Part shown: in pieces, positions 1 to 64,000 of the stretch
How positions within the stretch are numbered: the first letter of the stretch is position 1
Layout: each line of letters begins with the position of its first letter
Assembly: GCA_937928555.1 (NCBI GenBank)
Contig: CALFWR010000014.1
Span: 1-64,000, forward strand
Direction: 5' to 3'
Source of the DNA: an uncultured Pirellulaceae bacterium
Lineage (GTDB): Bacteria > Planctomycetota > Planctomycetia > Pirellulales > Pirellulaceae
DNA length: 64,000 nucleotides
Program-made: the position numbers and the translations under genes
Notes under the pieces: model-generated
The model's database searches: none
What the model was told of the DNA's origin: nothing
Seen by the model: only the letters and a program-made list of their open reading frames with translations

Positions 1-182
1 CGAAACCGTGGCAAGCTTTGGAGCGCTGGAGTTTTTCGATTGGCAAAGTGCAAGGGCAGGGCAGATGCCGGAGCGGCGGACACGGCAGAGAGATTGGACC
101 GTGTTGAGAAAGCGCAGAATCGCAAACCGGGTTTGGATGTCGGAGTAATTCAGCGTCCTTGATCCGGCCTACAAATACAGCG
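1..182. other. Window edge, no supportable gene
   Basis: The stretch before the nadE stop codon holds no feature I can support. Plus frame 1 is open from the edge to a TGA at 160-162, and minus-strand frames are partly open too, but none gives a recognisable protein. It may be the end of a neighbouring gene or the 3' flank of nadE. Confidence 0.3.
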
Positions 183-2192: not shown

Positions 2193-2256
2193 GTTTTTTC
2201 GCACTGGAATCAGGATTGGGCGGTGCAACGGGTGATGCACGGGTTTGGCTTGCGTC

Positions 2257-2262
2257 TATAAT
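2257..2262 (+). promoter_or_regulatory. Candidate -10 box (TATAAT)
   Basis: A perfect TATAAT lies in the divergent gap, 56 bases before the TTG start at 2318. No good -35 hexamer lies at standard spacing, so this is a partial promoter match only. Confidence 0.35.
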
Positions 2263-2317
2263 AGGGACTGGGAATAGACTCACATAGTTCACCTGAAAGA
2301 ACTTCAAAGGAGAACCG

Positions 2318-10914: not shown

Positions 10915-13215
10915 ATGGCGAAAACTAATGCCGTTTGGGGAATCGATATCGGGCAATCGGGCTTGAAGGCGCTTCGGTGCACCAAGGGCGAAGGCGATTC
11001 GATCGTCGCGGACCGGTATGACTTTATTGAATACCCAAAGATTCTAAGTGCTGCTGACGCGGAACCCGAAGCCATCATCAAAGAGGCGTTGGAGCAATTT
11101 CTTTCTCGCAATGAGGTTGCCGGAGATTCGATCGCGATCAGCGTTCCGGGTCAGGCGGGCCTTTCAAGATTCTTCAAGCCGCCACCAGTCGAAGCCCGCA
11201 AGATGGGCGACATCGTCAAATTTGAAGTCTCCCAGCAGATTCCTTTTCCGATCGAAGACGTGATCTGGGACTGGCAGCAGATGGGCGGAAGCACCGACGA
11301 GGATGGCCGAACGGTCGATGCCGAAATCGGCTTGTTCGCGATGAAGCGTGACGCAGTGTTCCGGGCCTTGCAGCCGTTTGACGATGCCGGTGTCGAAGTT
11401 GACATTGTTCAGTTGTCGCCGCTTTCGGTTTTTAATGTTGTTTGCCATGACTACATTGACGAACTGCCAACCGCCGAGGAGTTCGACCCTGAAGATCCTC
11501 CGGAATCCATCGTGATGATTTCGATGGGCACCGACACCACTGACTTGATCGTTTCCAACGGCGTCAAGCTCTGGATGCGAAACATTCCCATCGGTGGAAA
11601 TCACTTTACGAAACAACTTTCGCGCGAGATGAAACTGACTCAGGCCAAAGCCGAGCATCTCAAGCGCAATGCAAAGATGGCGGAGAATCCCAAGGCTGTC
11701 TTTCAGGCGATGCGACCGGTTTTCAACGACCTGGTCAACGAAGTCCAGCGTTCGCTGACTTTCTTTGAAAGCATGGACAAATCCGCCAACATTTCCGAAA
11801 TGGTTCTGCTGGGCAACGCGGCCAAACTTCCGGGTTTGACTCAGTTTCTTGGCAAACAGCTTGAGATCAAGGTTTCCCGTGCGAAAGGGTTCAAGCATCT
11901 CGACGGCGACGAGGTTACCAGCCAGTCCACGTTTGCAAACAATTCACTTTCCTTTGCTCCCTGCTACGGCCTCTGCTTGCAGGGACTCAGCCACGGGCAG
12001 ATCAAGACCAACCTGTTGCCCAACGAGATGGTGATCGAGCGTGTGATTCGCGCCAAGAAACCATGGGTATTGGCATCGGTCAGTTTGTTGCTGCTGGGTT
12101 GTTCGCTGGGGCTGTTTTACAAGACGCTGGCCAACGAAAACGTGGCTGAAACTCACGTTGACGCCGACGGCACCACGACGTGGGACTCGGCCATGAAAGC
12201 AGCCGACCGGGAATCCAAAGCCAGCAAGACGTTCGTTACCCGTGACACCGAACTGAAGGAGCTGCTGGGCAAATTCAAAGTCGTCGCCAACGAGCTGACG
12301 GCTTCGGATCTGGACCGTGCGTCGTGGATCGAGATTTACAGTGCTTTGTATCAGGCATTGCCCAAGGACGAAAATATCGAAAAGAAGTTGAGTGAACTTC
12401 CGGATGATGCCTTCAAGGCGATCGACCCCAAGGAAGTTCCCTTTGCGGGGCGGCGCGAGATTTACATCGATCATATCGAAACCGAATTTCAGAAGGATCT
12501 GGGCGAATGGCATGCCAAAATCGAGAAGATCTTTGAAAACCAGAACGCACGCGACATCGACTCGCTTCAGGACGACGTTGCCGCTGACAAAACCCCCAAA
12601 CCGGCGACCGCTGCTGGCGCTGGCGATGAAGGCGAGGACAAAGGAAAGCTGAAAGACAAAGCCGGCTGGGTGATCGAAATTCAGGGGCATCACTTCTTCA
12701 ACGAGGACCCTCTGACTGGGGAACTTGACTTTGTGCGTTCAACCTTTCTCAAGAACTTGACCAGTGGAACGGTCAAGCTTCCCGAAGGCGACTTCACCTA
12801 CGAGGACTTGGGGATCAGCTACCCGACGGTTGTCCGCGTATCACCGAAAAGCAACCCAAAAATCATTTCCATCGAATCCGACACATCCGGTTCAGGGATG
12901 GGCGGCATGGGCATGGGCGGTATCGGCAGCGGTGGTGGAAAGCGCTCTGGCGGTAGCCTAGGCGGCGGACCCGGCGGCATGGGCATGGGAGGTATCGGCG
13001 GCATGGGAATGGGCGGCATGGGAATGGGCGATTCTTCCGGTCAATCCCTGGTCGACAACGAGAAGGTTTTCGAGGCCAAAGAGTACATCTTTGTTGTGCA
13101 AATGGCCTGGATTCCCAAGAGCACAGCCGAACGCAATGAAGCCAAGACAACCCGTGAGGAAGCTGCCGCCAAGGCAGAAGCCGACGCGGCAGCAGCCGCA
13201 GCAGAGACCAACTAG
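10915..13215 (+). CDS. pilM: PilM-type pilus assembly ATPase fused to a PilN-like membrane segment
   Basis: Residues 1-~350 are PilM, the actin-like ATPase of type IV pilus and secretion platforms: GIDIGQSGLKAL (phosphate 1), a DTTDLIV segment, PIGGNHFTKQL and LLGNAAKLPGLTQFLGKQL. Stand-alone PilM is about 350 aa, but this protein has 766. KTNLLPNE, near residue 365, resembles the NLLP motif with which PilN docks onto PilM. A membrane segment (KPWVLASVSLLLLGCSLGLFY) and a ~370-residue periplasmic part follow. That part includes a Gly-Met repeat near residues 660-705 and an Ala/Glu-rich C-terminus. It is the first gene of a three-gene operon. PilM identity is secure; the PilN part is inferred from motif and topology. 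Confidence 0.85.
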   Translation: MAKTNAVWGIDIGQSGLKALRCTKGEGDSIVADRYDFIEYPKILSAADAEPEAIIKEALEQFLSRNEVAGDSIAISVPGQAGLSRFFKPPPVEARKMGDIVKFEVSQQIPFPIEDVIWDWQQMGGSTDEDGRTVDAEIGLFAMKRDAVFRALQPFDDAGVEVDIVQLSPLSVFNVVCHDYIDELPTAEEFDPEDPPESIVMISMGTDTTDLIVSNGVKLWMRNIPIGGNHFTKQLSREMKLTQAKAEHLKRNAKMAENPKAVFQAMRPVFNDLVNEVQRSLTFFESMDKSANISEMVLLGNAAKLPGLTQFLGKQLEIKVSRAKGFKHLDGDEVTSQSTFANNSLSFAPCYGLCLQGLSHGQIKTNLLPNEMVIERVIRAKKPWVLASVSLLLLGCSLGLFYKTLANENVAETHVDADGTTTWDSAMKAADRESKASKTFVTRDTELKELLGKFKVVANELTASDLDRASWIEIYSALYQALPKDENIEKKLSELPDDAFKAIDPKEVPFAGRREIYIDHIETEFQKDLGEWHAKIEKIFENQNARDIDSLQDDVAADKTPKPATAAGAGDEGEDKGKLKDKAGWVIEIQGHHFFNEDPLTGELDFVRSTFLKNLTSGTVKLPEGDFTYEDLGISYPTVVRVSPKSNPKIISIESDTSGSGMGGMGMGGIGSGGGKRSGGSLGGGPGGMGMGGIGGMGMGGMGMGDSSGQSLVDNEKVFEAKEYIFVVQMAWIPKSTAERNEAKTTREEAAAKAEADAAAAAAETN
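12895..13031 (+). repeat. Gly-Met-coding tandem repeat
   Basis: Short imperfect repeats of the type ggcatgggcatggg encode GMGG/GMGMGG units in the PilM-PilN-like protein. Similar tracts occur at about 13841-13873, 14645-14722, 15732-15849, 16479-16620 and 16806-16875 in the same operon. Confidence 0.85.
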
Positions 13216-13267
13216 TTTGCCCCAGGCAATCGCAACGAATCATTTTTGAAAAACATCGGAGAGTACC

Positions 13268-15172
13268 GTGGAACAACTGGCTCCTTTTATCGCCTGGATG
13301 CAACGCAATAAATTTTGGATTAGCTGCTTCATGGTGGCGGCGACTTCGATTGGAATCTGGTTCTTTACGTCCAACCAACTGGTCGCCGCGCAGAAAAAGC
13401 GTGAAAACGAGATTCGCAAGCGTGTCGGTGAACTTGACAGAGTCATGAAAGTAAATGCCGAGGAGGACGGCGAGAGGGCTCATCCGAACAAAGCCACCCA
13501 GGCAGGCATGGACGCTGTCATCGACGACACAATTTCTTCGATCGTCGCTGGCTGGAACGAGCGCTACAGCGCCCAGAAGGGATCTTTTCAGTGGCCCAAA
13601 GAGATTCTTGGTGACGAGGCGACCCGGTTCTTCAGTCAGATTGAAGTGGTTGAGAAGTTCAATCCAAAAAGCAGCCGGGGATTCGAGAAGTACCTGATCA
13701 CGTTTTACAACCGCATCCCACAGTTCATGGACAAAATTACCCGCGAATTGGGCACCAACTGGCAATACGATCCCGAGTACATCAAAAAGAAACAGGAAGC
13801 CCAAATGGGCGACAGCGAAGGCAGACGCGGTGGTACTCCTGGCATGGGCATGGGAATGGGAATGGGCATGAGCGGAGGTGGCGATTCCGGGCTTTCACTG
13901 ATCGACGAGCTGAACAGCTATCCGGTGCAGTGGGAGGAGCCCAACCAGCTTCTGTGGCAGCAAAAGCTGACGCAGTTTGCCGGTTACGATGACAACAAGG
14001 GAGCCTCTGTTGCGCCCAGTTTCCTGCAAGCCAACATGCTGATGCAGGATCTGTGGCTTTTGGAAGCGATGTTCAAGAACATCAAGGATATCAATGGCGA
14101 TTCGTCGTCAAACGACACATCGATCATTCGAAATATTGACCACATTGCTTTTGGTCGTGAAGCAGACGGAGACTTGGGGGTATTGCATGAACCGGACCCA
14201 CGTCTGAAGGGGGAGGTTCCCGGTGAAGACGATGCCGCAGCATCCACTGGCGCAAGAGGGCCCATGGGAGGAGCGAGCATGAGCATGGCGGGCGCCCGGG
14301 GAGCCTTGCCCGGGGCAGAGGATGGTCTTGATATGAATGCCGAGCGAAATCCATATCACGGTCGCTATGTCACGCCGGATTTTGAAAAAATTGCTGCGGC
14401 GGACATTCGTGCCGTCATCGGCGGCGAAGCACTTCCGGAGAAGAATCTTGAACTGATTGTTGCCAAGCGCGTTCCGTTTCGATTGGGTGTGACCATGGAT
14501 GAACGAAAGATTCCCGAGTTCATCGCGTTGTGTGCTAATTCAAACTTTGTATTCGAGATTAACCAGTTACGTGTGAATCGTCACCAGGACGAAGACGTTC
14601 AGATCGCATTCAATGGCGGGATCACCAAAAACGATTCCGATGACGGCATGGGCATGGGAATGGGCGGCATGGGAATGGGCGGCATGGACATGGGTGACAT
14701 GGGTGACATGGGCATGGGCGGAGGCGGTGGTCCTTCTGTGTCGCTCGATGCACTGGAATCGCGCCCTGTCGAAAGCCGAATCAACTTCGACGTGTCGGTG
14801 GAATTCTTTGGCATCGTCAAGCTTTACAACCCGGTCCGGGAGAACTTTCTCAGAAAGGCCGCCGGCCAGAAAGTTGTTGACGAAACGGTCCAGGAAATCG
14901 AAGCTCCCGAACAACCGCCAAAAGTGGCTGCACCGGCCAATCGCACTGCACCTGCGGCAGGGGCTGGTCAGGCTGCTGCGGGCAATGCTCAGCCTGCAGG
15001 CGGTGTCGCAGCCCCGATCCCTGGTGCTGAAGCGACACCTGCCGCAGCTCAACCCAATCCACGGCCTGCCGGAGCGGCTCCAACTGGACAAGCCGGTGCT
15101 CCGGCGGTACCTCCTGTCGGTGGCGTTCAGGCTCCGGGACAGGTTCCCGAAGCTGGCGGTGCCAGCCAGTAG
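13268..15172 (+). CDS. PilO-/Amuc_1100-like inner-membrane assembly protein
   Basis: 634 aa from a GTG start, 52 bases after pilM. A short cytoplasmic N-terminus is followed by one membrane helix (FWISCFMVAATSIGIWFF), a coiled-coil-like stretch (AAQKKRENEIRKRVGELDRV) and a long periplasmic region with two Gly-Met tracts. A segment near residues 400-535 (IPEFIALCANSNFVFEINQL..., then FDVSVEFFGIVKLYNPV) resembles the ferredoxin-like domains of PilO and of Amuc_1100, the PilO-like protein of the Akkermansia pilus cluster. The C-terminus is a long Ala/Pro/Gly-rich tail. The assignment rests on topology and operon position beside PilM; sequence resemblance is weak. Confidence 0.65.
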   Translation: MEQLAPFIAWMQRNKFWISCFMVAATSIGIWFFTSNQLVAAQKKRENEIRKRVGELDRVMKVNAEEDGERAHPNKATQAGMDAVIDDTISSIVAGWNERYSAQKGSFQWPKEILGDEATRFFSQIEVVEKFNPKSSRGFEKYLITFYNRIPQFMDKITRELGTNWQYDPEYIKKKQEAQMGDSEGRRGGTPGMGMGMGMGMSGGGDSGLSLIDELNSYPVQWEEPNQLLWQQKLTQFAGYDDNKGASVAPSFLQANMLMQDLWLLEAMFKNIKDINGDSSSNDTSIIRNIDHIAFGREADGDLGVLHEPDPRLKGEVPGEDDAAASTGARGPMGGASMSMAGARGALPGAEDGLDMNAERNPYHGRYVTPDFEKIAAADIRAVIGGEALPEKNLELIVAKRVPFRLGVTMDERKIPEFIALCANSNFVFEINQLRVNRHQDEDVQIAFNGGITKNDSDDGMGMGMGGMGMGGMDMGDMGDMGMGGGGGPSVSLDALESRPVESRINFDVSVEFFGIVKLYNPVRENFLRKAAGQKVVDETVQEIEAPEQPPKVAAPANRTAPAAGAGQAAAGNAQPAGGVAAPIPGAEATPAAAQPNPRPAGAAPTGQAGAPAVPPVGGVQAPGQVPEAGGASQ

Positions 15173-15237
15173 TTTTCTTTTGTTCAACCTTTTCCCTTTT
15201 TCCGACAACCATTTGTTTTCCCAACGGGTTACGAATC

Positions 15238-17757
15238 ATGAAAAAACCAGACCTGAGTTCCGCAGCGATCAAGAAATTCTTTCTCTATCACGTTGAGAAA
15301 ATCGTTCTTGCGTTGGGCATCATTTTGCTTGGCCTGTTCTTCTGGCTGGGTTACGCGACGCCTGTCTGGGATCAAATCTCACCCAAGGGGATGGTCGACA
15401 AAGCCAAAAGCGCCAATCGATTCATGGTCGCTGAAAGCAATTGGGACAAAATCTCGTCGCGCAGGGCCGGCGACGACAAGGTGCTTGAGCGGATCCGCGG
15501 CGCGGGTTCGATTGCAGCGGGTGATTTCGTAATGACGCCAGCGTCCTATCCGGTCAAACGCGATTCGATGCGCCGCGACCGGGACCTTGCGCAAGTACGT
15601 GACATCTCGGGGACTTCTTTTTCTTCGACCGTCATCCTTCAGCCACAACAACGTGCTGTTGTGGACGCACTGGTTAACTTTGAAGTGGTCAAACCAGAGT
15701 TCCCCAAGCAGATCGGCAGTTCCAGCAAAAGCATGGGCGGATTCGGTGGCATGGCAATGGGTGGCCCGGGGATGAGCGATGAAGATGACGATAGCGGCGA
15801 AGGCGGCATGAGCATGGGAATGGGCATGAGCATGGGAATGGCGATGGGCGATTCCAAAAAGAAGAAAAAGAAAAAGAAGAAAAAGAAAGGCGAAGAAGTA
15901 GAAGCCGGAACGTACGTTGCCAAATGGAACGAGTACACATTCCCCGGCTATCGTCCACGCAACCTTTCACCGACAGAGGTTGCTCCGTTTTCATTGGACG
16001 TTGTGGCGGTCAGTGGTGTTATCGACCACAAGAAGATGTGGGAAGATTTCCGCGACCACTATTCCGGTAGCTTTGCTTTCCATCCGGAGCGTGATGCCCC
16101 CAACTACGATTACCTGCAGATTGAGCGACGCGAAGTTGCTGCCGATGGCAGTGCCGGTGAGTGGAACGATGTCTCCGAAGCCATCCTTCGTCAGGAAGAA
16201 CTTTTTCCGGGCAATGGATTCACTGCCGCCGAAGTCGTTTCACCTCAAGAGTTCGATGTTGCGATCTGCCTTCCCATTCCGGCGATGACGGGAATCGACT
16301 ACAAGTCGCTCGCGATGCATGGTGGCTGGGATCCAAAGCGGGCTCGTGATTTCCCGTTCCCCGAAAAGGAAGAAGTCAAGATTGCCACCGGTGACGATAT
16401 CCTCAAGGACAACACCGACAAAGACGATGACGATGACCAGATGATGGATCGCCCAAGTGGCCGACGCCGGGGAACCATGAGCGGTAAAGGCAACATGGGT
16501 ATGGGTATGGGAATGGGCATGGGAATGGGCGGTAGCCGTGGCGGACCTGGCGGCGATCTAGGCATGGGTGACATCGGTGGCATGGGCATGGGTATGGGCA
16601 TGGGAGGTATCGGCGGGGCCCGGTCTTCTGCCGACACGACTGCCTATGACGAAATCGACATCAAGAAAAAGCCTGAGAGCGATGTCAAAGTTGTGCGTTT
16701 CTTTGACATGGCTGTTCGTTCTGGAAAAACCTACCAGTATCGCATGCGAGTTTGGGTCCGAGACCCCAACAATGAAGATCCGGAACTTGCCAGAGGCGGA
16801 AGCGGTATGGGAGCTGGCGGCATGGGCATGGGTGGCATGGGCATGGGTGACATCGGTGGCATGGGCATGGGTAACGCTGGTGGTCGCAGCAAGAAGGGCA
16901 AAACAGGAGATGACGGTGACGACGATGACGATGACGATCAGTTTGAGTTCGTCAAAAAGGAGCCCGTCTCATCAAAGATGATTCATCCACAAGCTCGTAA
17001 ACGTCTTGCTTTGGCTCGCGAGGAAGAGGCCGAAGACGGAACCGTGACTTACTTTGTTAGCGAACGCTATGGCGAGAACGACGAGTGGGTTGAGTACAAG
17101 GTTCCCGGAAACGGAAATCGCGACTACCTGAGGTTTGCACGTCCAAGCCGCTGGAGTGATCCAGTCGAGGTCAGCGTCAACAATTCCCGTTCGTTTGTCT
17201 ACGCTGGCAATCCTGTCGAACCTCGCAAAGTCGAAATCGGCAATCGGCAGATTGTTGATGGCGATCGTCGCATGGAAGTCGCTGCCGGAAAGTCTTTCCG
17301 GGGCGGAAAGCTGAGCGGAATCACGGTTCCATTCAAAGCGGAAGTTCGTGCGGGACAACTGCTGGATTTCTCAAAACCAACCCATGTTCTTCATCCGGTC
17401 ACCTGGGCGATCCATCGCCTTGAGAACGTTGACCTTGACGGAGACCAGGAACCGGATCCCATCAAAACGGGTTCGGTCGTGGTTGATATCTCTGGTGGAG
17501 ATCGCTTGGGCATCAAACGTAACGAGCCAATCCAGTATCAGTACCCGGGTGAGACTTTGGTGATGTTGGCCGATGGCCAACTGTCGCTGCGAAACGACCT
17601 TGAGGATCGTCGCGAATACCTTTCTTCGTTGCTGAAAGCAGATGACAAATTCGAATTCGGTGCCAAGAAGGCTGCCAGAAAGGCGGCCCGTGCAATGGAA
17701 GAAGCCGAGGACAGCGGTTTCGGACCGGGACCAGGTATCGGAGCCGGTCGGCAATAG
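15238..17757 (+). CDS. Gly-Met-rich bitopic membrane protein of the pilus operon
   Basis: 839 aa, third gene of the pilM operon. One membrane helix near the N-terminus (IVLALGIILLGLFFWLGY) is followed by a large periplasmic region. Three GMGMGM-type tracts fall at residues ~165-205, ~415-460 and ~520-548. A run of eleven lysines (KKKKKKKKKKKGEE) lies near residue 207 and acidic runs such as DDDDDDD near 563. It belongs to no family I recognise. Position suggests a structural partner of the PilM/PilO-like platform, possibly in the PilP or scaffold role. The operon ends at the terminator at 17794. Confidence 0.7.
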   Translation: MKKPDLSSAAIKKFFLYHVEKIVLALGIILLGLFFWLGYATPVWDQISPKGMVDKAKSANRFMVAESNWDKISSRRAGDDKVLERIRGAGSIAAGDFVMTPASYPVKRDSMRRDRDLAQVRDISGTSFSSTVILQPQQRAVVDALVNFEVVKPEFPKQIGSSSKSMGGFGGMAMGGPGMSDEDDDSGEGGMSMGMGMSMGMAMGDSKKKKKKKKKKKGEEVEAGTYVAKWNEYTFPGYRPRNLSPTEVAPFSLDVVAVSGVIDHKKMWEDFRDHYSGSFAFHPERDAPNYDYLQIERREVAADGSAGEWNDVSEAILRQEELFPGNGFTAAEVVSPQEFDVAICLPIPAMTGIDYKSLAMHGGWDPKRARDFPFPEKEEVKIATGDDILKDNTDKDDDDDQMMDRPSGRRRGTMSGKGNMGMGMGMGMGMGGSRGGPGGDLGMGDIGGMGMGMGMGGIGGARSSADTTAYDEIDIKKKPESDVKVVRFFDMAVRSGKTYQYRMRVWVRDPNNEDPELARGGSGMGAGGMGMGGMGMGDIGGMGMGNAGGRSKKGKTGDDGDDDDDDDQFEFVKKEPVSSKMIHPQARKRLALAREEEAEDGTVTYFVSERYGENDEWVEYKVPGNGNRDYLRFARPSRWSDPVEVSVNNSRSFVYAGNPVEPRKVEIGNRQIVDGDRRMEVAAGKSFRGGKLSGITVPFKAEVRAGQLLDFSKPTHVLHPVTWAIHRLENVDLDGDQEPDPIKTGSVVVDISGGDRLGIKRNEPIQYQYPGETLVMLADGQLSLRNDLEDRREYLSSLLKADDKFEFGAKKAARKAARAMEEAEDSGFGPGPGIGAGRQ

Positions 17758-22813: not shown

Positions 22814-22834
22814 TCTTTCCTCTTGTTATTTACC

Positions 22835-23020
22835 CCGGATTATTCACGAGGCGTGGGCGTCAGAATCAGTTCCGACATTGATCGGTTACTCTGATGCGCT
22901 GAAACGATCGCTGCGGCTTTCACCTACCGAATGATTCACATTTCTTGTTGAAATTCAGTTTTCCCCTTGCTCCTGTTGGCCAAACGTAGAATTAACGCCC
23001 GTCGTCGTGAATAATCCGGG
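22835..23020 (+). mobile_element. MITE-like 187-bp element, copy 1
   Basis: 186 bp, bounded by CCCGGATTATTCACGA and its reverse complement TCGTGAATAATCCGGG. It is flanked on both sides by the 5-bp direct repeat TTTAC (22830-22834 and 23021-23025), as expected for a transposition target duplication. It carries no ORF of its own. Orientation A means the GAGGCGTGGGCGTCAG end comes first. It sits 21 bases upstream of the SPFH start codon. Confidence 0.9.
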
Positions 23021-23454: not shown

Positions 23455-23526
23455 CGGTTGGTATGGGACTCGAACCCATGACATCCAGATAACAATCTGA
23501 TGCTCTGCCTACTGAGCTAACCAGAG
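23455..23526 (-). tRNA. tRNA-Asn (GUU)-like, degenerate
   Basis: The D arm (TAGCTCAGTAGGCAGAGC), anticodon arm with GTT, 5-base variable loop and T arm (ATGGG-TTCGAGT-CCCAT) are clear. Two defects stand out. The anticodon loop is TTGTTA, six bases instead of seven. The acceptor stem CTCTGGT/ACCAACC pairs at only the inner four of seven positions, as if the 3' end had been replaced. CCA is not encoded. It may be a tRNA pseudogene or a remnant left by recombination at a tRNA 3' end. Confidence 0.6.
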
Positions 23527-46434: not shown

Positions 46435-47046
46435 ATGCAACGAAAAAACATCTCGTCAGGCGCTCCTTGGGAAGAAATCGTGGGCTATTCCCGCGCGGTG
46501 CAGGTTGGTTCCTTTCTGGAAATCGCAGGCACAGTCGCGACAGATGCCAACGGTGAAATTCCCGCTGACGATGTCGCTGCACAGACAAAGATGATTCTGG
46601 AAAAGATCAAAAGCGTCATCAACCCGGATTATTCACGACGACGGGCGTTGATTCTACGTCTGGCCAACAGAAGCAAAGGAAAAGCTGAATTTCAACAAGA
46701 AACTTGAGCCATCCGGTAGATGAAAACCACAGCGATCGTTCCGTCGCATCAGAACCGCGGATCACTATCGGAACTGATTCTGACGCCCACGCCTCGTGAA
46801 TAATTCGGGATCAAAGAAGCCGGCGGTTCGCTTGGTGACGTCGTGCGAACACGGATCTTTGTCGCCGACATCACCCAGTGGGAATCCATCGGACGCGTTC
46901 ACGGACAGTTTTTCGGTGCCATCAAACCGGCATCGACGATGGTCGAAGTCAGCCGCCTGGTGGACGACCGCTATTTGGTGGAAGTTGAAGCTTCGGCGAT
47001 TCTTTCAGGTGCAGACAAAGACTCAGTCGGTAAAACCCGAGATTAG
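46435..47046 (+). pseudogene. RidA/YjgF-family gene split by a mobile repeat
   Basis: RidA proteins deaminate reactive enamine/imine intermediates. The first 62 codons (to LEKIKSVI) are interrupted at 46623 by the 187-bp element and translation stops at 46707 inside it. The rest (KEAGGSLGDVVRTRIFVAD..., HGQFFGAIKPASTMVEVSRLV) resumes at 46813 and reads to a TAG at 47044-47046. Removing the element and one ATCAA duplicate restores one uninterrupted ~139-codon frame. The lost half holds the trimer and active-site Arg region (VRTRIFV), so the 90-aa truncated product should be inactive. Confidence 0.9.
46623..46809 (-). mobile_element. MITE-like element, copy 2
   Basis: 187 bp in orientation B (reverse of copy 1), inserted in the RidA-family gene. 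It is flanked by a perfect direct repeat ATCAA at 46618-46622 and 46810-46814. The right end reads CCCGAATTATT on the complementary strand, one mismatch to the consensus tip. It carries no gene. Confidence 0.95.
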
Positions 47047-54967: not shown

Positions 54968-55128
54968 GATGTCTCCCGATATTATCGAATCCCGAGAACC
55001 AGAACTTGTCCTGCTCTCGCAAAAGCAAACTTGAAAGTTTACGGTTGTCTGTAAAGAATGGTCAAGCGTCTGCTCGATTAAAGTCGGAACGTCGGTTTTC
55101 TGGCATTGTTTTTCCCTTGGCCCTTCCC

Positions 55129-56211
55129 ATGAAGTCCTTTTTTCACGTTATTTCGCTGCTGCCAGTGATCCTGCTTGTGGTGGCATTCTCAGCCGATATT
55201 GCCGCCGCTCAGCGGGGCAGTGCTCGTGAGAAACAGGTCAAGAAAGAGCTTGCGGTCGTCAGTGGCGTGATCGAAGTCGATAGCCGAAAAGCGTTTCAGG
55301 TCAAGTACGAAGAAATTAAAACCAAACTTCGTCAGGAAGTCCAGGTCGAGAAAGTCCCGACTCCGCCGCAGTGGAACACCATGGTGGAAGTCGACCGCAA
55401 GCAGTGGTTGACGAAATTCTACCAGTCCGACAAAGGCAAGCGTTTCCTGCAGACGCAAGACAAGAAAATCAAAGACGCCGCCGTATTCGATGTCCGCTAC
55501 AACGACAAAGGAAAATTCGAAGTCTACGACGTACCTGCGGGCACCTATGGCTTGCAAGGACGCGTCGACAAGGAAATCGATGGCGTGCTTTATGGGTTTG
55601 AGGTCTTTGCAAAAATCGTCGTCAGTGAGGACGTTGACCAGGTCAACCTCGAACCGATTCCAATCGAAATCACACCCCTGTTCAAGCCTAACCAGGCGGC
55701 CCCGCCGATCAACGTCAGTACCAACGATGGCAAACAACTGACTTACGATTTGGCGGCATACAAGGACCACTACATCTTTTTGAATTTTCTCAACAGCAAA
55801 GACCAAACTCCCGGATACCAGGAACAGGTGCAGCAGATGTACAAAGACCTGGGCAAGTCACACAAGGTGAAGCTTATTTCGATTGTCGTGGACGACAAAG
55901 ACTACAAGAAAAAGGGGGACGGCAAAGGGCGCGCGGTGGCGATCAAATGGCTCTTGGAAAAAAAGCTGAAGTTCGGCAGCTATGGCTTTACCGATGGCTG
56001 GGAACATCCAGTGACTCAGGCTTACGGAATTCGCTCCACGCCTTCCGGTTGGCTGATCAGCCCCGACAAAGAGCGCAAGATCCTGATGAGCCAACACGAG
56101 TTCTTTCAGCAGGCTCGCGTCAAAGCTTCGATCACAGAAATTGTTCGCGACCGCATCGACGGCAAGGACAAACCTACATTGGCCAAGCCGCCTGAAAACG
56201 CCAAAAAATAA
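55129..56211 (+). CDS. Exported thioredoxin-fold protein without CxxC
   Basis: 360 aa from the ATG at 55129; the ORF track begins 41 codons earlier without support. Signal peptide [21 protein letters not shown]. An N-terminal beta-rich domain is followed by a TlpA/peroxiredoxin-like C-terminal half: [25 protein letters not shown] stands where a TlpA protein has WATWCGPC, and [18 protein letters not shown] carries the cis-Pro region. Both redox Cys are missing, so it is probably a binding or structural version. Confidence 0.75.
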
Positions 56212-56246
56212 CGTGGTTGTGGCTTCTAACCGCAATCATTTCTTAC

Positions 56247-56433
56247 CCCCGATTATTCACGAGGCGTGGGCGTCAGAATCAGTTCCAACAGTGATCCACG
56301 ACTCTGATGCGATGAAACGATCGCTGTGGTTTTCATCTACCGGATGATTCAAATTTCTTGTTGAAATTCAGCTTTTCCCCTGCTCCTGTTGGCCAGACGT
56401 AGAATCAACGCCCGTCGTTGTGAATAATCCGGG
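56247..56433 (+). mobile_element. MITE-like element, copy 3
   Basis: 187 bp in orientation A. The tip reads CCCCGATTATT (one substitution). Flanks are CTTAC (56242-56246) and CTTAT (56434-56438), a decayed 5-bp duplication. It lies in the gap after the thioredoxin-fold gene and forms one border of the island-like segment. Confidence 0.88.
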
Positions 56434-56456
56434 CTTATCAACCGCTCCCCTGTTCC

Positions 56457-56499
56457 AAAACGTTGTGGGTTCCAACGCTGGAGCTCTCCACAACGTTTT
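56457..56499. terminator. 12-bp hairpin downstream of the island operon
   Basis: AAAACGTTGTGG and CCACAACGTTTT are perfect reverse complements with a 19-base loop. It is 19 bases after the stop of the minus-strand operon and ends in a short run of T on either strand, a plausible bidirectional terminator. Confidence 0.65.
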
Positions 56500-56517
56500 G
56501 ACATGCGCCATGTCGCG

Positions 56518-57834
56518 CTAGCGGTCAGGCTTTGGGTCATCCAAACGGAAAGCTTCAAGCACAGCTTCTTCAGCTCCATCCTCAATGAATTGATATTCAG
56601 ATTCAAAAACCGGAAAGGCCTTGAGCGGAATGGGCCGATTGGGTGTCGAATCCCACGACATCATCCAGTTTGCCCGTAGCCGGGGCGTCGTAATGGAACC
56701 TGGCTTCAGATGATCCGGCAGCGAATCTCGCAACCAGGCCTGCGCTTCCTCAACGGTAAGCCCTTTTTCTCGCATAAAAATACTTGCCTTTAGGCTACCC
56801 AGAAGCATTGGGCTCAGTTGCGAGGCAGAGGTAAATGGCTTGCCCTCGCGGGTCAACCCCAGAGTCTCTACGTGCCATAGTTGCCACTTGTCCACAAGCC
56901 CTTGAAACTCTTCTGGCGAGCAAAACTCGGAACACAAAAACAGGCTCGAATCCATTGCATGCAATAGTGCAACAGGAACTGAACTATGGTAGAAATTTTC
57001 GTCGAAATAATCTGTGAACAGGTTAAATTGTTTGTCAAAATTCCCTCGTGCCAAAGTTTCGGCGACTTCCGGTTCCAATGCCGATAGCAAGTCATGAATT
57101 CGCGAAATCCTGCGATCAGCGAGGATCCCCCACATACTAATGGTGTTTCCACCACTGGTCGGCAGTGTCGCAGGGGCAATGAATCTCACTGATGCTTCCG
57201 AATTTTCTCCCAAGGCTGTTAGCAGTTCACCCAAACTCATGTTGGCCGTGTCTTCCAGAAACCGCAGTTGCAAATCGCTGCTTTTGGAAAAGGTCAGCCA
57301 CCATTTTTTCAGCTTGGCAAAGTCTTTGAAGACACCCGACTTGGAGCGTATCGAAACGTTGGAAAGCTCTGTTTTCTCCTTGGCAAAAACGGCCAAGCGA
57401 AGCGGGCTATTTCTGTCCAGTTTCTGCGGCAACAAGAATACTAACGTTGTTTCATTGGAGCCAAGCTGATCTAGTTTGATTCTTTTCCCATGGTCATCCA
57501 GAAGCTCAACCGCCTCAATACTTTTGATTCCGGTTTCTGACCGAAGAACCAATCCGTCAAAAAAAGCCATCGCTTTGCCCGTTCCTTCAGGCAGAGCCAA
57601 CTCATTCTCGATATCAAGCTTGCCACTCAAAAGCTGAACTTCGAAAAGCTTGTCCCGGCTTTTGTTCCACTGGCACTTTTTCTCTTTGATGAAGTCCTTT
57701 AACAGAATCTCATGTTCAGCCTTATGAGCATCGAGACGGTCATGTACAGACACCGGCTTCTCATCAGCAGGCAGCACTCGCACAAGCAGAAGTGACCAGG
57801 TTAACGCAAAAACTACTCTTAATTTGAATTTCAT
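56518..57834 (-). CDS. Secreted protein of unknown function (island gene 3)
   Basis: 438 aa. Signal peptide RVVFALTWSLLLVRVLPA. No domain recognised. After a helical N-terminal region (DAHKAEHEILLKDFIKEKKC) comes a beta-like region (IKSIEAVELLDDHGKRIKLDQ). The rest is mostly helical, with CSEFCSPEEFQGLVDKW near residue 300. It is the last gene of a three-gene minus-strand operon, 32 bases after the previous stop. The base composition seems more A/T-rich than the ribosomal and housekeeping genes, suggesting recent acquisition. Confidence 0.6.
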   Translation of the reverse strand: MKFKLRVVFALTWSLLLVRVLPADEKPVSVHDRLDAHKAEHEILLKDFIKEKKCQWNKSRDKLFEVQLLSGKLDIENELALPEGTGKAMAFFDGLVLRSETGIKSIEAVELLDDHGKRIKLDQLGSNETTLVFLLPQKLDRNSPLRLAVFAKEKTELSNVSIRSKSGVFKDFAKLKKWWLTFSKSSDLQLRFLEDTANMSLGELLTALGENSEASVRFIAPATLPTSGGNTISMWGILADRRISRIHDLLSALEPEVAETLARGNFDKQFNLFTDYFDENFYHSSVPVALLHAMDSSLFLCSEFCSPEEFQGLVDKWQLWHVETLGLTREGKPFTSASQLSPMLLGSLKASIFMREKGLTVEEAQAWLRDSLPDHLKPGSITTPRLRANWMMSWDSTPNRPIPLKAFPVFESEYQFIEDGAEEAVLEAFRLDDPKPDR

Positions 57835-57866
57835 TTGCTCGACTACTGTGGTGATCCAGTGTTGGG

Positions 57867-58928
57867 TTAATTTGCTCCGGAGCCAGGCGGGTTTGCTCCG
57901 GAGCCAGGCGGGTTTGCTCCGGAGCCAGGCGGGTTTGATCCAGAATCCGGCTCATGTGGTCCTGAGCCGGGCTCATGTGGTCCTGAAAAACCAGACAGAG
58001 CTCTTCGGAATTTGAAACCTCTAAATCCGCCAAACTCGCCTTTTGAAAGATCGTGAACCTCTTCATGGCGTTCAGCAATATTCAAACCAATCTGATCTTC
58101 ATCACAGCTCTTGTTTTGGTTTCTGGTGTAAGTGCCACTTTCCCGCCACTGCTCCGACGTCTCACGAATGACAAAGTTACTGCAGCGTCTCCATCTGCCT
58201 TCAATGAAATCGTACGCCTCACACTGAAACCATTCGGCATCGGGGAATTCACATTCCTCAACCTTATCAATCCTGATCGTGTGTCGACGATTCGTTGCGA
58301 CCTGCGCCTCCTCGACTGCAACTTCGGGGAAACACACCAAGTCTGCCCCCCACATGCTGGCATCAAGTTCTTCCTCTGGAGCAGGCGCGCCAAGGCCAGC
58401 ATCCACTGGGGCCGATATTTTGCCTGGTACATGAGAGAAAATCCAAACTCCCAGACCGTGTGCATAACCATGACAGTTTTGCGTATAATCACACCTGCCT
58501 TGTTCACATTCATATCCCCAATAGTACCAATCCCACCACCACTTATTCTGCTCATGTGACCAAGTTCTCACTGCTTCTTTTGAAGGCGATTTCCAGTCCA
58601 TTGAGATGTCGAATTCTTGGTAGGAAAACTTTTCCTCCATGCAATTTTCCAAATTGTTTCTGACGATTCTGCCTGAACTGGGATGCATAAACCCTCCTCC
58701 AAGTCGCGGATTTTCCTGCCAGTCAGGATCCAAAAAGATGAACACTTTCTTCGGATGAGGAAATACATCTTTCCCTATTGGCTCACGAGCAACACAGAAA
58801 ACAGCCATTGTTTTCAATATCCTAATATTCTCGTCGCCGTCCTGACCGTGTGAATCAGATGAAGAAATAAGGAGTTGATAGATCAACACCGATACAACCA
58901 TCAGAAGTTTTGTGTTTGTCATGTTCAT
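57867..58928 (-). CDS. Secreted protein with Pro/Gly heptad tail (island gene 2)
   Basis: 353 aa. Signal peptide MNMTNTKLLMVVSVLIYQLLISSSDSHG. No known domain; Cys-rich segments include GYECEQGRCDYTQNCHGYAHGLG, suggesting disulfides or metal binding. The C-terminal ~35 residues are repeats of a PPGSGAN heptad preceded by HEPGSGP-type variants. It sits between the other two operon genes. Secreted or surface-exposed role inferred; function unknown. Confidence 0.6.
   Translation of the reverse strand: MNMTNTKLLMVVSVLIYQLLISSSDSHGQDGDENIRILKTMAVFCVAREPIGKDVFPHPKKVFIFLDPDWQENPRLGGGFMHPSSGRIVRNNLENCMEEKFSYQEFDISMDWKSPSKEAVRTWSHEQNKWWWDWYYWGYECEQGRCDYTQNCHGYAHGLGVWIFSHVPGKISAPVDAGLGAPAPEEELDASMWGADLVCFPEVAVEEAQVATNRRHTIRIDKVEECEFPDAEWFQCEAYDFIEGRWRRCSNFVIRETSEQWRESGTYTRNQNKSCDEDQIGLNIAERHEEVHDLSKGEFGGFRGFKFRRALSGFSGPHEPGSGPHEPDSGSNPPGSGANPPGSGANPPGSGAN
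57874..57983 (-). repeat. 21-bp tandem repeat coding Pro/Gly heptads
   Basis: Three exact copies of a 21-base unit (57874-57936) and two diverged ones (to ~57983) encode PPGSGAN-like heptads at the C-terminus of the overlapping gene. Being three-fold in length, they change copy number without a frameshift. Confidence 0.85.
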
Positions 58929-58962
58929 GTTTTTCCTAAGAGCAAGTCATGCGTCGAAACAA

Positions 58963-60060
58963 CTACTGCCTCGACGAAACAATTTTTGCGTGAACAATTG
59001 TGCTGGATGACTCAGAACTAAAAACCTCGGCTTTGAGCGAAGCCGCGTCACTCTTGAGAAGTGTGCGTGGGAATTCCACCAGTACGAGTTTTCTTTTCGA
59101 ATTTCCGCTCGTTCTTTCAACACGTGTAGTAACAGCCTGTCCGTCCACAGAACAACGAACCGATTCGTCGCCATCAAGAAAACCAATCTTAGAGGTGACA
59201 ACGAACCGCACGCGACAAACTAAGCCAGCTTCGTCTTCTCGAAGTGTCAATACAGTAGAGATTAGGCTGACTGCCGGCACATGACGTATCACGACACAGA
59301 CCTCTCGAGATTTGCCAGTTTCAGAATCAGAAACTGTGACGTTTGCCGAATTAACCTTAAGATCTTCCAGTCGCTCCTTCAGCGGGCTAGCCTTCAAGAC
59401 AAGAAATGCTTCTCCCGACGATTCTTCTCGAATTTCCGCATGAAGACCCGCATCACCATTGACAGCACATGTCAGGTTCTGCGCACGAATCGGTTTGGAA
59501 ACGACAACCGGAATTCGCCTTTCAACGGTACTGGCGAATTCTCCTGCAGGAACCTCAAAGCTCACCTGCCGTTCTCCAACGGAAAGATTGTCATCCAAGA
59601 AATATTTAAATACCAAAGATGCCATTCGCTCGCCCGCTTCATTTACAAGTTCCATGCGCAACGATCGTTCACTTTTCGAAGAATGTGCAGGAGCGCGAAA
59701 GGAAAACTCTCCCTCAGCAGATTCGCCCATGCCAATCGATTTAGAGGAAAAGGAGATCTGACGGCACCTACATCCGCCGCTTGCTTTGAAAAACACCAAG
59801 GGGCCAGTTAGAGAAAACCGAACCTTCTTGACCGTTGAGCAGGGCACTGATCCAAGATTGGCCACCCGAACCCCAGTTGCGTTTGTGTCGAAGTGCACAA
59901 CATCTGAATTCACCCGTGTTGCCGCTTCGAACACATCTCTGGCTACGACGGGAAGGTACGCAGGCGCGGCGTGAAAGCCAAGAACAAATATCAGCAGACA
60001 AAAACGCGTAATCGAAACAACCATGGGATCAAAGTTCCGCATAAGCATGCACACATCCAT
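58963..60060 (-). CDS. Secreted protein with DUF1573-like segment (island gene 1)
   Basis: 365 aa from the ATG at 60060; the ATG at 60024 gives a cleaner signal peptide (MVVSITRFCLLIFVLGFHAAPA), and the track uses a TTG at 60066. Residues ~55-140 resemble DUF1573: VRVANLGSVPCSTVKKVRF, then GGCRCRQISFSSKSIGMGESAEGEFSF, with a Cys pair where DUF1573 has a CGC-type motif. A second beta-rich half follows. It is the first gene of the unknown operon. Export is likely; function unknown. Confidence 0.6.
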   Translation of the reverse strand: MDVCMLMRNFDPMVVSITRFCLLIFVLGFHAAPAYLPVVARDVFEAATRVNSDVVHFDTNATGVRVANLGSVPCSTVKKVRFSLTGPLVFFKASGGCRCRQISFSSKSIGMGESAEGEFSFRAPAHSSKSERSLRMELVNEAGERMASLVFKYFLDDNLSVGERQVSFEVPAGEFASTVERRIPVVVSKPIRAQNLTCAVNGDAGLHAEIREESSGEAFLVLKASPLKERLEDLKVNSANVTVSDSETGKSREVCVVIRHVPAVSLISTVLTLREDEAGLVCRVRFVVTSKIGFLDGDESVRCSVDGQAVTTRVERTSGNSKRKLVLVEFPRTLLKSDAASLKAEVFSSESSSTIVHAKIVSSRQ

Positions 60061-60227
60061 TGCCAAGATTTCTAGAATGTCAGGTGATCAGACATGTGTC
60101 AAGCGACCTGGCTGTCTTAATTCGTGTTTTGCACTTATTTGAGCATTGCTATGGCATAAAAAAAGCGACATCCGTAAAAGAAAATGATTCTCTAAAATCC
60201 AATTCTTTCGACACGGACGTCGCAGAC

Positions 60228-60440
60228 ATGGAGCTTACCAGTTCGTTTTCAAATTTACTACTGACATTTTCTCCCGTCTTCACCGAGCCGAGTTTTGTCA
60301 CGTTTCGGCTTCTGATGACCGGCTGGATCATGTCAATGCGGCATCGCTACATCACTGACATGATCGTCTCCAGTGACTCGGTGCATTTTGGCCACTTTTC
60401 CGACTACCATCGTTTCTTCAGCCATGCGGTCTGGCAAATG
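60228..60440 (+). pseudogene. Transposase N-terminal fragment (IS701/DDE_5-like)
   Basis: 71 codons from the ATG at 60228. FSPVFTEPSFVTFRLLMTGWIMSMRHRYITDMI, then HFSDYHRFFSHAVWQM, match the N-terminus of IS701-type DDE transposases. The match stops at ~60440, where sequence continues as an unrelated leucine-rich-repeat fragment in another frame. The catalytic part is missing. It is evidence of an insertion sequence and later deletion here. Confidence 0.75.
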
Positions 60441-60804
60441 TCAGGTCGAGGGACAGCCAAAGTCTCTCAAGAGCCTGGGGCAACTTGAAAACTGCTACAT
60501 TGCCGATTGCGATCTAATGGGTTGGGATTGGTTGGCAGGGTGCTCGGCTCTTTCACACCTGATACTTAAATTTGAGCACCGTTCTGAAGTGAAGCTTGAC
60601 GCCCTCGAGTCGTTACCAAAGCTCAAAATTTTGATTGCCAGGAATTTCGATGTTTTGGACTCAACAGCTCCCGTGATGCCTGCACTTGAGATATTCAGGC
60701 TTGAAGAAGCAACGATAGATGATGCACTTTTGAGCGAATTTAAACAGCTGAACCCTGACATGAGAGTCGAGGTTCAGCATCATCAATCGCCTGCGGACAG
60801 ATAG
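60439..60804 (+). pseudogene. Leucine-rich-repeat protein fragment
   Basis: The frame reads SLKSLGQLENCYIADCDLMGWDWLAGCSALSHLILKF, then ALESLPKLKILIARNFDVLDS and MPALEIFRLEEATIDDALLSEF, which are LRR-like units, ending at a TAG. Its 5' part is missing and is replaced by the transposase fragment in another frame. The track start at 60373 lies inside that fragment. Probably the 3' end of an LRR gene broken by the insertion. Confidence 0.6.
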
Positions 60805-61125
60805 GTCGCCGACAATCGTCGTTTGGCAAGTTTGTTAAGAGAAACTTCAGTACGTCGAGGGTGCTGTAAGTGAATTTAAGCCCGGATTATTCGCGACGAC
60901 GGGCGTTGATTCTACGTCTGGCCAACAGGAGCAAGGGAAAAGCTGAATTTCAACAAGAATCGCGAATCATCCGATAGATGAAATCCACAGCGATCGTTTC
61001 ATCGCATCAGAGCCGCGGATCACTGTCGGAACTGATTCTGACGCCCACGGCTCGTGAATAATTCGGGGTAAAACTAATCCGGGCTCGCCAGACAATTCAT
61101 GAACCCGGAAACCAAGCGTGGTCAA
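60805..61125. other. Non-coding region with mobile repeat copy 4
   Basis: 321 bases between the LRR fragment and the RND gene stop. It is mostly filled by repeat copy 4. The short stretch 61068-61125 holds an extra ATCCGGG motif but nothing else that I recognise. Confidence 0.6.
60881..61067 (-). mobile_element. MITE-like element, copy 4
   Basis: 187 bp in orientation B, opposite to copy 3. Its tips read CCCGGATTATTCGCGA and, on the complement, CCCGAATTATTCACGA. Flanks are TTAAG and GTAAA; no target duplication can be seen, so this copy may be old or rearranged. Confidence 0.88.
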
Positions 61126-64000
61126 TTAGCCGTTGGCCAATCCGGGGGTTGGAATTGGCTGTGGTTTGTCGTTGGGTTGCGAAGCCTCTTCGGCGTGATC
61201 GAACACAAGCGGAATGCCCATGGTCTTCAGGGCTGAACCGTAAAGCGAATAGAACACCGGAACAAGAATCAGAATCAACAGCGTTCCAAACAACAGACCA
61301 AAGATCAGACTGACCGCCATCGGGATCAGGACTTGAGCTTGCATGGACGTCTCCAGCAACATCGGGAACAGCCCGGCGATCGTCGTCATCGAAGTCAACA
61401 TGATTGGGCGGAATCGTCGCCGTCCGGCCTGGGTGAGTGCTTCCTGAAGCGGCACGCCGCTGCGAACGCGGTGGTTGATAAAGTCCACCAGCACGATCGA
61501 ATCGTTCACAACCACGCCGGTCAGTGCGATCAAGCCAAAGAAGGTAAACAGTGTCAGTTCCAGGCCCATCACCGCGTGTCCAATGATCGCACCCAGCAGG
61601 CCAAAGGGAATGATCGACATGATGATCAGCGGCTGCATGTAGGAGCGGAACTGCAGGGTCAGCAAAACGTACATGCACATGATCGCGATAAAGAATCCCG
61701 TGATCATGCTGCTTACCGACTCCTGATTCTGGGCCTGTTCGCCTTCCCAGTTCACCGAAAAATTCGCCCCCGTGCGCTCGCGCCACGACTGAAGAAGTTC
61801 CGGAAGAAACTCGTTCTGCATTTCGACGACCAACTGACGACCGTTGACGCGTTTGCTGTCCGCATCGGCGGTCACGGTGATGCTGCGTCGTTGATCCAGC
61901 CGATTGATTTCAGCCAATTCTTTCTCGTGGCTAATGTTGGCGACTTCGGTGATGGGTCGTTCGACGCCCTGGGCATCCCGCACGCGAATCTCTTCAAACG
62001 CTGCCTGGGTTTCGCGGTCAGCCCGGGGATAACGGACCATCAGCTTGACCTCGTGCCGCCCCCGCTGAAGCCTCATGACTTCGTTGCCGAAGTAGACCGA
62101 TCGAATTGTTTCGGCAAGGTCCTGTTCGTTGAGCCCCAGAGCCTGGCCTTCGTTGTTCAGGCTCAGGTTCCGCTGCCACTTTCCGGGTCGCATGTCGTCT
62201 TCGAGGTCGAAGACACCGTCCTTGCTGGCCAGCCATTTTTTGCAATCTTCGGCGATGTCTTCCAGGAAAGGAGCTCCTTTTTCGTCGGCGAGAATTTTGA
62301 ATTCGACGGCCGCACCACCGGGGCCCATCGAACGGGCTCCAAACCGCAGAATCTCCGTGCCGGGGACTTTGGGGATCTCCTGCCGCCACATGTCGATCAG
62401 TTGGCGCGTGGTGATTTCGCGTTCATCCGGCGGGGTGAGCAGAACAGAAACATTACCGACGTGGCTACCGGTGGTGACACCGTTGGGGCCCTTGATCGCG
62501 TCGCCGACTTCGCCGACTTTTTCGTACAGGTTTTTGATCACCGACGGCTGGCCCGAATCCTGAATCTTCTGGTCGATATCAAGGATCGCGGCCTTCAGCT
62601 TTTTTATCGACTCCTGTGAGTACTCAGCCGATGTGCCGTTGGGAAAGACAACGGTGCCGCTAATTTCGCGTCCATCGAGTTTCGGGAAAAGTCCAACCGG
62701 AGCGATGCCCGCCGCAACGAGCCCGACGCAGACCGCGCCGAACGCAAACGCACCTGCACAGGTGATGCGGCGATTGCTCAGGGAAAATTCCAGCAGCGGC
62801 GAATAAATGCTGTCGATACTGAACTGCATGGCCTTCGATGCGGCGGCGTTGAGTTTTTTGAACAACCATAGCAATGGCTTGAACACATACAGGACGACGC
62901 CAACGGCGCGCATGAACAGGTTGTTGTCGTGGGCCAGGTGAGCCGGAAGAATAAAGGCACTTTCAATCAATGAAATGAACAGCATCGCGATGACCGCCAG
63001 CGGCATCACTGCGATGAATTTGCCCATCACGCCCGAAACGAACATCAGCGGCACAAAAGCGATAATGGTGGTGGTGACCGACGCCGTCACACTGGGGAGG
63101 ACTTCGACCGTACCTTCGATCGCCGCCGCGACAAACCCCAGGCCCTGTTCGCGTTTATTGTAGATATTCTCGCCGATCACGATCGCGTCATCGACAACGA
63201 TCCCGAGGGCCATCAGAAAGGAAAACATGGAAAGCATGTTCATCGTCTGACCAAAGGCAAGCAGCATCACTCCTGCGCCCAGGATCGAGATCGGGATCCC
63301 CATGGCAACCCAAAACGCCAGTCGCAAATCAAGGAAAACGGCCAGAACCACGAAAACAAGCAGCAGTCCCTGAGCGCCGTTTCGCATTAGCAGGTCGATG
63401 CGATCGTAGACGTCTTCGGACATGTCACCCCAGTACGTGATCTCGTAGCCGGTGGGCATCTGTTTGCTCTGGATATAGTCTTTGACCGTTTCGACGACGG
63501 TGAACAGGTCTTCCTTGTTGGTTTTCGAGACCTGCAAGACCATGCCCGGCTTGCCGTTGATCAGGTTGATGGAAGTCGTTTCGGCAAAGCCATCGATGAC
63601 GTTGGCGATGTCGCCGACACGAATCACGTCTCCGTCAGATTTGGTGATCGCGGGAAGATCCGCAATGCCCTGGCCGTCTTCGCGTTTATTATTTCCGCGA
63701 AGCAGCATTTCTTGTGATCCGGTAACCATTTTGCCACCGGGCACGTCGATGTTCTGCTGGCGAATGATGTTGGCCAATTGGTCCATGCTCATCCCGTACT
63801 GCCGCAACGCGTCTTCGGAGACTTCGACGGAAACCTCGTAGGGACGCTCGGCGGAAATTTCCGCGGAGGTGATCGCGGGGCCCTTGGGTTGGAAGAGGTC
63901 TTTGAAAACTCGCCGCACCGGACTGAGCGGTTCGGTGGGCCGCAGTTGCAGCATCTGACTGCGGACTTCTTCCGCCAGGGAGCGCAGTTGCCTTTCGGAT
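61126..64000 (-). CDS. RND efflux permease, partial (5' end beyond the window)
   Basis: Proton-driven inner-membrane pump subunit of the AcrB (HAE1-like) superfamily. The frame stays open to the window edge (SERQLRSLAEEVRSQM precedes the ORF-track Met), so the gene is incomplete. The TM4 motif FLMALGIVVDDAIVIGENIY has the two Asp of the proton relay. A porter/docking region with DIANVIDGFAETT is present, and the C-terminal half repeats the fold (FFGLIALTGVVVNDSIVLVDFINHRV). The C-terminus ends KPQPIPTPGLANG. An adaptor (MFP) partner is not in the window. Confidence 0.93.
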   Translation of the reverse strand, partial: SERQLRSLAEEVRSQMLQLRPTEPLSPVRRVFKDLFQPKGPAITSAEISAERPYEVSVEVSEDALRQYGMSMDQLANIIRQQNIDVPGGKMVTGSQEMLLRGNNKREDGQGIADLPAITKSDGDVIRVGDIANVIDGFAETTSINLINGKPGMVLQVSKTNKEDLFTVVETVKDYIQSKQMPTGYEITYWGDMSEDVYDRIDLLMRNGAQGLLLVFVVLAVFLDLRLAFWVAMGIPISILGAGVMLLAFGQTMNMLSMFSFLMALGIVVDDAIVIGENIYNKREQGLGFVAAAIEGTVEVLPSVTASVTTTIIAFVPLMFVSGVMGKFIAVMPLAVIAMLFISLIESAFILPAHLAHDNNLFMRAVGVVLYVFKPLLWLFKKLNAAASKAMQFSIDSIYSPLLEFSLSNRRITCAGAFAFGAVCVGLVAAGIAPVGLFPKLDGREISGTVVFPNGTSAEYSQESIKKLKAAILDIDQKIQDSGQPSVIKNLYEKVGEVGDAIKGPNGVTTGSHVGNVSVLLTPPDEREITTRQLIDMWRQEIPKVPGTEILRFGARSMGPGGAAVEFKILADEKGAPFLEDIAEDCKKWLASKDGVFDLEDDMRPGKWQRNLSLNNEGQALGLNEQDLAETIRSVYFGNEVMRLQRGRHEVKLMVRYPRADRETQAAFEEIRVRDAQGVERPITEVANISHEKELAEINRLDQRRSITVTADADSKRVNGRQLVVEMQNEFLPELLQSWRERTGANFSVNWEGEQAQNQESVSSMITGFFIAIMCMYVLLTLQFRSYMQPLIIMSIIPFGLLGAIIGHAVMGLELTLFTFFGLIALTGVVVNDSIVLVDFINHRVRSGVPLQEALTQAGRRRFRPIMLTSMTTIAGLFPMLLETSMQAQVLIPMAVSLIFGLLFGTLLILILVPVFYSLYGSALKTMGIPLVFDHAEEASQPNDKPQPIPTPGLANG

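Follow-up and report, generated by a model that had tools for sequence, protein, structure and literature searches.

A MITE-flanked interval in a Pirellulaceae genome carries a patchily distributed pair of exported proteins

Near the end of a 64,000-nucleotide stretch of DNA from an uncultured Pirellulaceae bacterium (assembly GCA_937928555.1, contig CALFWR010000014.1, positions 1 to 64,000; hereafter the window), two oppositely oriented repeats enclose three minus-strand genes for exported proteins, here named P3, P2 and P1. This raises two questions: do the repeats delimit a transferred module, and do the three genes form one system? An original prediction, made from the sequence, had suggested both. 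We consider it fairly probable that the interval is instead an accessory one, which carries a P2-P1 pair together with an unrelated P3, and that the repeats, miniature inverted-repeat transposable elements (MITEs), were inserted separately. The interval (56247–61067), which takes in repeat copies c3 and c4 up to their outer ends, contains the following features.

56247–56433, minus strand: MITE copy c3, 187 bp, with flanks CTTAC and CTTAT (4 of 5 bases equal)
56518–57834, minus strand: P1, exported, with a predicted beta-sandwich resembling a carbohydrate-binding module (CBM) at residues ~54–169 and a predicted helical domain at ~172–371
57867–58928, minus strand: P2, exported and cysteine-rich, with an NCHG motif and, further on, a His, both invariant; upstream of P1
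57871–57975, minus strand: tail repeat of P2, 21-bp tandem units coding for Pro/Gly heptads, three identical and two diverged
58963–60066, minus strand: P3, exported, weakly DUF1573-like, with a conserved CxC; an orphan with distant relatives in congeners
60228–60487, plus strand: possible, weak transposase remnant, from sequence matches
60373–60804, plus strand: possible, weak remnant of a leucine-rich-repeat (LRR) gene, from an LRR_8 match (E=0.22) and a pattern read by eye
60881–61067, plus strand: MITE copy c4, 187 bp, with flanks TTAAG and GTAAA (3 of 5 bases equal), target duplication unrecognisable

Much of how the block had been described is borne out. The repeats c3 and c4 are indeed an inverted pair (56243–56437 and 60877–61071), 92% complementary and separated by 4,439 nt. 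The three open reading frames are consecutive and tightly spaced, with 34 nt between P3 and P2 and 32 nt between P2 and P1, and each product has a strongly hydrophobic, signal-like N-terminal segment. Searches of Pfam, NCBIfam, PHROGs, PADLOC and PDB sequences gave no significant match for P1, P2 or P3, in line with the claim that they belong to no known family, and among the PADLOC anti-phage models there is no family for them at E-values up to 1. The block is also A/T-rich with odd codon usage, as predicted. Its GC content is 0.484 versus 0.545 in the rest of the window, while the lowest GC of any 3.5-kb segment within 1–55.5 kb is at least 0.521; GC at third codon positions is 0.45–0.52 in the three genes versus 0.63 in reference genes, and their codon usage is deviant. 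A promoter and terminator scan found site numbers not above those in shuffled sequences.

The repeats belong to one family with four copies in the window, c1 to c4 (22834–23020, 46623–46809, 56247–56433 and 60881–61067), each bounded at both ends by the 16-bp terminal inverted repeat (TIR) CCCGGATTATTCACGA. The usual element length is 187 bp (43 of 54 copies), which is too short for a transposase gene. Allowing up to two mismatches, the TIR matches the 4.87-Mb genome 672 times in forward and 653 times in reverse orientation (about 1,325 termini), while the reversed pattern, used as a control, gives 1 and 0 matches. This corresponds to up to about 650 elements, on average about 7.4 kb apart, although many of the termini may be partial copies. 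The 27 congener genomes contain 0–6 TIR matches per strand, mostly with two mismatches and thus near chance. The element inserts with target duplications: identical 5-bp flanks are found in 27 of the 53 copies in which both flanks are readable, where shuffled pairing expects 1.4, and in contigs C82 and C65 one MITE lies inside another with ATCAG on either side. The RNA of the element folds far better than shuffled sequences (z-scores of -3.8 and -3.5). We are therefore highly confident that the repeats are a MITE present genome-wide, and within the genus its burst is all but limited to this one species.

For Photorhabdus luminescens, a review puts the number of ERIC copies at 711, a high count for a prokaryote (PMC10969869), and the present burst is therefore of similar size. 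Its copy number is near the highest cited for prokaryotes, and the congeners offer a clean before-and-after comparison within a genus. Like the ERIC and Correia elements, the MITE is short, TIR-bounded, mostly non-coding and associated with target duplications, nested insertions and a strong hairpin RNA. However, it has a different TIR, occurs essentially in one species of its genus, and no intact helper transposase was identified for it. A candidate helper may be the truncated DDE_Tnp_1 transposase gene on contig C96 of the window's genome (L152, G000; ~1107–2290), where CCCGGATTATTCATCA follows the stop codon at a distance of about 150 bp and the other (5') end has been lost to a MITE insertion. 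A search with PF13701 for an autonomous partner revealed no intact candidate with TIR ends, and a 1.6-kb TIR-bounded segment in contig C2 was rejected in this role, as it contains no recognised transposase.

The relationship between the three genes is best seen from their distribution. A second pair, with P2 upstream of P1 on the same strand, lies at the end of contig C80 of the same genome. Profile searches find P2 directly upstream of P1 and on the same strand in G115 (Pirellulaceae KatS3mg111), G190 (Planctomycetaceae MAG-47) and G056 too, and the gene pair is conserved in three further Pirellulaceae genera. The pair is nevertheless rare. P2 is present in 5 of 241 genomes of the family, the window's own included (in one of the five, G189, the match covers the low-complexity tail only), and in none of the 391 other sampled genomes of the phylum; P1 is present in 7 of 240 family genomes. 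No P2 was found in plasmids and viral contigs. A scan of 85,462 GTDB genomes with short peptide patterns, in which the window's own genome was left out, recovered P2 only in the two metagenome-assembled genomes already known to carry it.

Several copies are decaying. The sister copy of P1 in C80 has an internal stop, a P2-like fragment (NCHGYAFGVGDWP) in C82 (L122, G000; ~6150–6570) is interrupted by a MITE with a second MITE inside it, and the P2 gene of G056 is disrupted next to an inserted transposase-like gene. Between the intact P1 of the window and the C80 copy, synonymous divergence is 1.49 and non-synonymous divergence 0.25, a ratio of about 0.17, and therefore purifying selection has acted on P1 over most of their divergence. 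The best reading is that P2-P1 is a lineage-restricted, patchy and dispensable exported pair. An enrichment of MITEs beside P1 copies was also noted and, by a hand estimate, judged not significant given the intergenic density of the element.

The chromosomal setting of the interval is given by two neighbouring genes.

55006–56211, plus strand: left neighbour, thioredoxin/AhpC-TSA-like exported protein (TSA)
61126–63999, minus strand: right neighbour, RND efflux transporter

All ten congener loci examined retain the linkage between purA and TSA. What lies downstream of TSA differs, for example a PQQ-type gene in G025 and a DegT-type gene in G015. In none of the ten loci was TSA found to be followed by the trio or by the RND gene, in agreement with the expectation that close relatives would lack the genes at this site. 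None of these loci provides a clean empty site for comparison. In G025 the best RND orthologue lies about 88 kb from TSA. From the variable gene order after TSA and the position of the RND gene elsewhere, it follows that the trio lies at a rearranged junction.

P3 behaves differently from P2 and P1. In G025, G027 and G015 its relatives have neither gene as a neighbour, so the proposal that the trio is one co-occurring system was not upheld: only P2-P1 recurs. The DUF1573-like segment noted earlier in P3 is visible as a weak signal in its N-terminal region, where P3 matches PF07610 at E=0.13 (12.7 bits) and a relative at 0.0032 (17.9 bits), and the CxC is invariant in four relatives; however, the gathering score of 26.1 was not reached in any case tested. 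Two arrangements elsewhere are worth recording. In G015 (C64, L055; 9651–11499), a P3-like DUF1573-related gene is directly followed by a gene for a small cysteine-rich exported protein. On C80 (L049, G000; 97–3907), the stop-bearing P1 copy is upstream of a rhodanese-domain gene, MauE and an unknown exported gene, all on one strand, and the N-terminal half of the rhodanese-domain protein looks peptidase C39-like by eye.

The AlphaFold2 model of P1 (pLDDT 81, pTM 0.76) consists of the beta-sandwich followed by the helical domain. Foldseek aligns the sandwich locally to GH86, GH156, AlgX, CBM32 and CBM35 with probabilities up to 0.94, every match being at E >= 0.001, and finds no convincing fold match for the helical domain. 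Independently, residues 31–101 of P1 match the N-terminus of a 789-residue G015 protein with a porphyranase domain (E ~3e-6). The N-terminus of P1 thus resembles the N-terminal CBM-like module of GH86 agarases and porphyranases, but P1 has no glycosidase domain and carries an unrelated helical domain instead. It is reasonable to suggest that the N-terminal sandwich binds glycan.

P2 contains ten cysteines. Four relatives keep DW-x-Y, NCHG, a later His, EQ..S..YT and several invariant cysteines, and both Cys152, within NCHG, and His216 are invariant among them. The Pro/Gly heptad tail predicted earlier is real, a 21-bp minisatellite, and was not found in distant relatives. Four members of the family have no Pfam match even at E-values up to 10 and no convincing PDB match, and the structure model of P2 was unusable (pLDDT 31). 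P2 may resemble papain-like cysteine enzymes of the NlpC/P60 or CHAP type, which we take as a lead only; the likeness lies in the invariant Cys of NCHG followed by an invariant His, while P2 differs in having neither a match to a hidden Markov model (HMM) nor a usable model. Perhaps P2 is a Cys-His hydrolase or transpeptidase-like enzyme, or else a disulfide-rich surface protein.

How, then, did the interval come about? Since hundreds of MITE copies are spread over the genome, bracketing by c3 and c4 is no mark of a transferred unit; at the mean spacing given above, the next copy would fall within 4.4 kb with a probability of about 0.45, and the bracketing of the trio is not special. The flanks of c3 agree at four of five positions, as for a lone insertion, while the outermost flanks, CTTAC and GTAAA, are unequal, where a composite transposon would have matching outer duplications. 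A composite cassette, in which c3 and c4 would have carried the whole 4.6-kb block along with them, would account for the inverted and complementary flanking copies and the low GC of the block, and MITE ends also lie near P1 copies in C128 and C65; against the mismatched outer flanks, the element density and the failure to find an intact helper transposase, we regard it as very improbable, and the repeat-bounded module of the original prediction falls with it. In a MITE-saturated genome, repeats on either side of a block do not make it an island, which corrects a natural inference. That c3 and c4 were inserted separately is held with moderate confidence. P2-P1 could nevertheless have been acquired horizontally and independently of the MITEs, with MITE insertion nearby later. 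The very patchy distribution of both genes, their deviant codon usage and a GC below that of the host loci in G115 and G190 too would fit this. However, loss from a common ancestor, combined with the low GC usual in accessory genes of weak expression, would give the same pattern, and the other copies in the same genome and the P1 relatives in the congeners G015 and G025 fit vertical persistence. Low GC is common to family members in G015, G115 and G190 and therefore does not, on its own, point to a recent transfer here. Horizontal acquisition is thus a tentative possibility.

P3, P2 and P1 could also constitute one envelope system, with P3 as a chaperone or redox-linked partner of the cysteine-rich P2. 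The short intergenic gaps, the CxC kept in P3 beside the ten cysteines of P2, the same-strand run headed by the P1 copy in C80 with its rhodanese-domain gene and MauE, and the cysteine-rich exported gene after the P3 relative in G015 speak for it. Nonetheless, none of the other genomes examined showed P3 together with P2 or P1, and its relatives in G015, G025 and G027 stand apart from both; we find this unlikely. In the accessory-interval reading that we prefer, the interval would be a fast-turnover stretch at a junction where gene order varies between species, holding the lineage-restricted exported P2-P1 pair, which an unrelated DUF1573-like P3 would precede here; c3 and c4 would have been inserted separately in the species-specific burst and would not have mobilised the block. 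Some observations weigh against this reading. There is no clear target duplication at c4, and rearrangement through c4 or inversion between the inverted copies c3 and c4 may have taken place. With P3 34 nt upstream of P2, a three-gene operon in the present species is possible. On the functional side, none of the P1 structural matches has an E-value below 0.001, and the Cys-His enzyme reading of P2 draws on four aligned relatives, with no HMM or PDB support.

What the pair does can be proposed with low confidence as far as any biochemical mechanism is concerned. P2 and P1 would be co-exported and would work in the envelope or on the surface of the cell, where P1 would bind glycan via its N-terminal sandwich and P2 would act through Cys152 and His216 as a hydrolase or transpeptidase-like enzyme, or serve as a disulfide-stabilised surface protein. 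The envelope or surface role suggested originally is plausible, in that the products may act in the envelope or outside the cell. A fuller version, in which P2-P1 is an undescribed exported Pirellulaceae system at the cell surface with a new-family cysteine enzyme and a glycan-binding helical partner, seems to us improbable as it stands. P1 and P2 are nevertheless two families that current libraries lack. Their gene order is conserved, at least one of them is under selection, and they are tractable targets in a phylum where many exported proteins are still unexplained.

The remaining features of the interval are fragments. Both the transposase and the LRR fragment of the original prediction can be traced only weakly. 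The transposase remnant (about 60228–60440) has no Pfam match; five of its six plasmid matches are named transposase, only at E-values of 0.04–0.8. A relative of the remnant in G020 belongs to another protein, a DoxX-like one, and was regarded as a chance match. The LRR fragment depends on the LRR_8 match listed above.

Elsewhere in the window, Rfam recognises a tRNA at 23459–23523 with 44.7 bits, whereas ARAGORN does not; it may be a degenerate or unusual tRNA. Several adjoining plus-strand genes at 12880–16874 contain Gly-Met-rich repeats (GGCATGGGC units).

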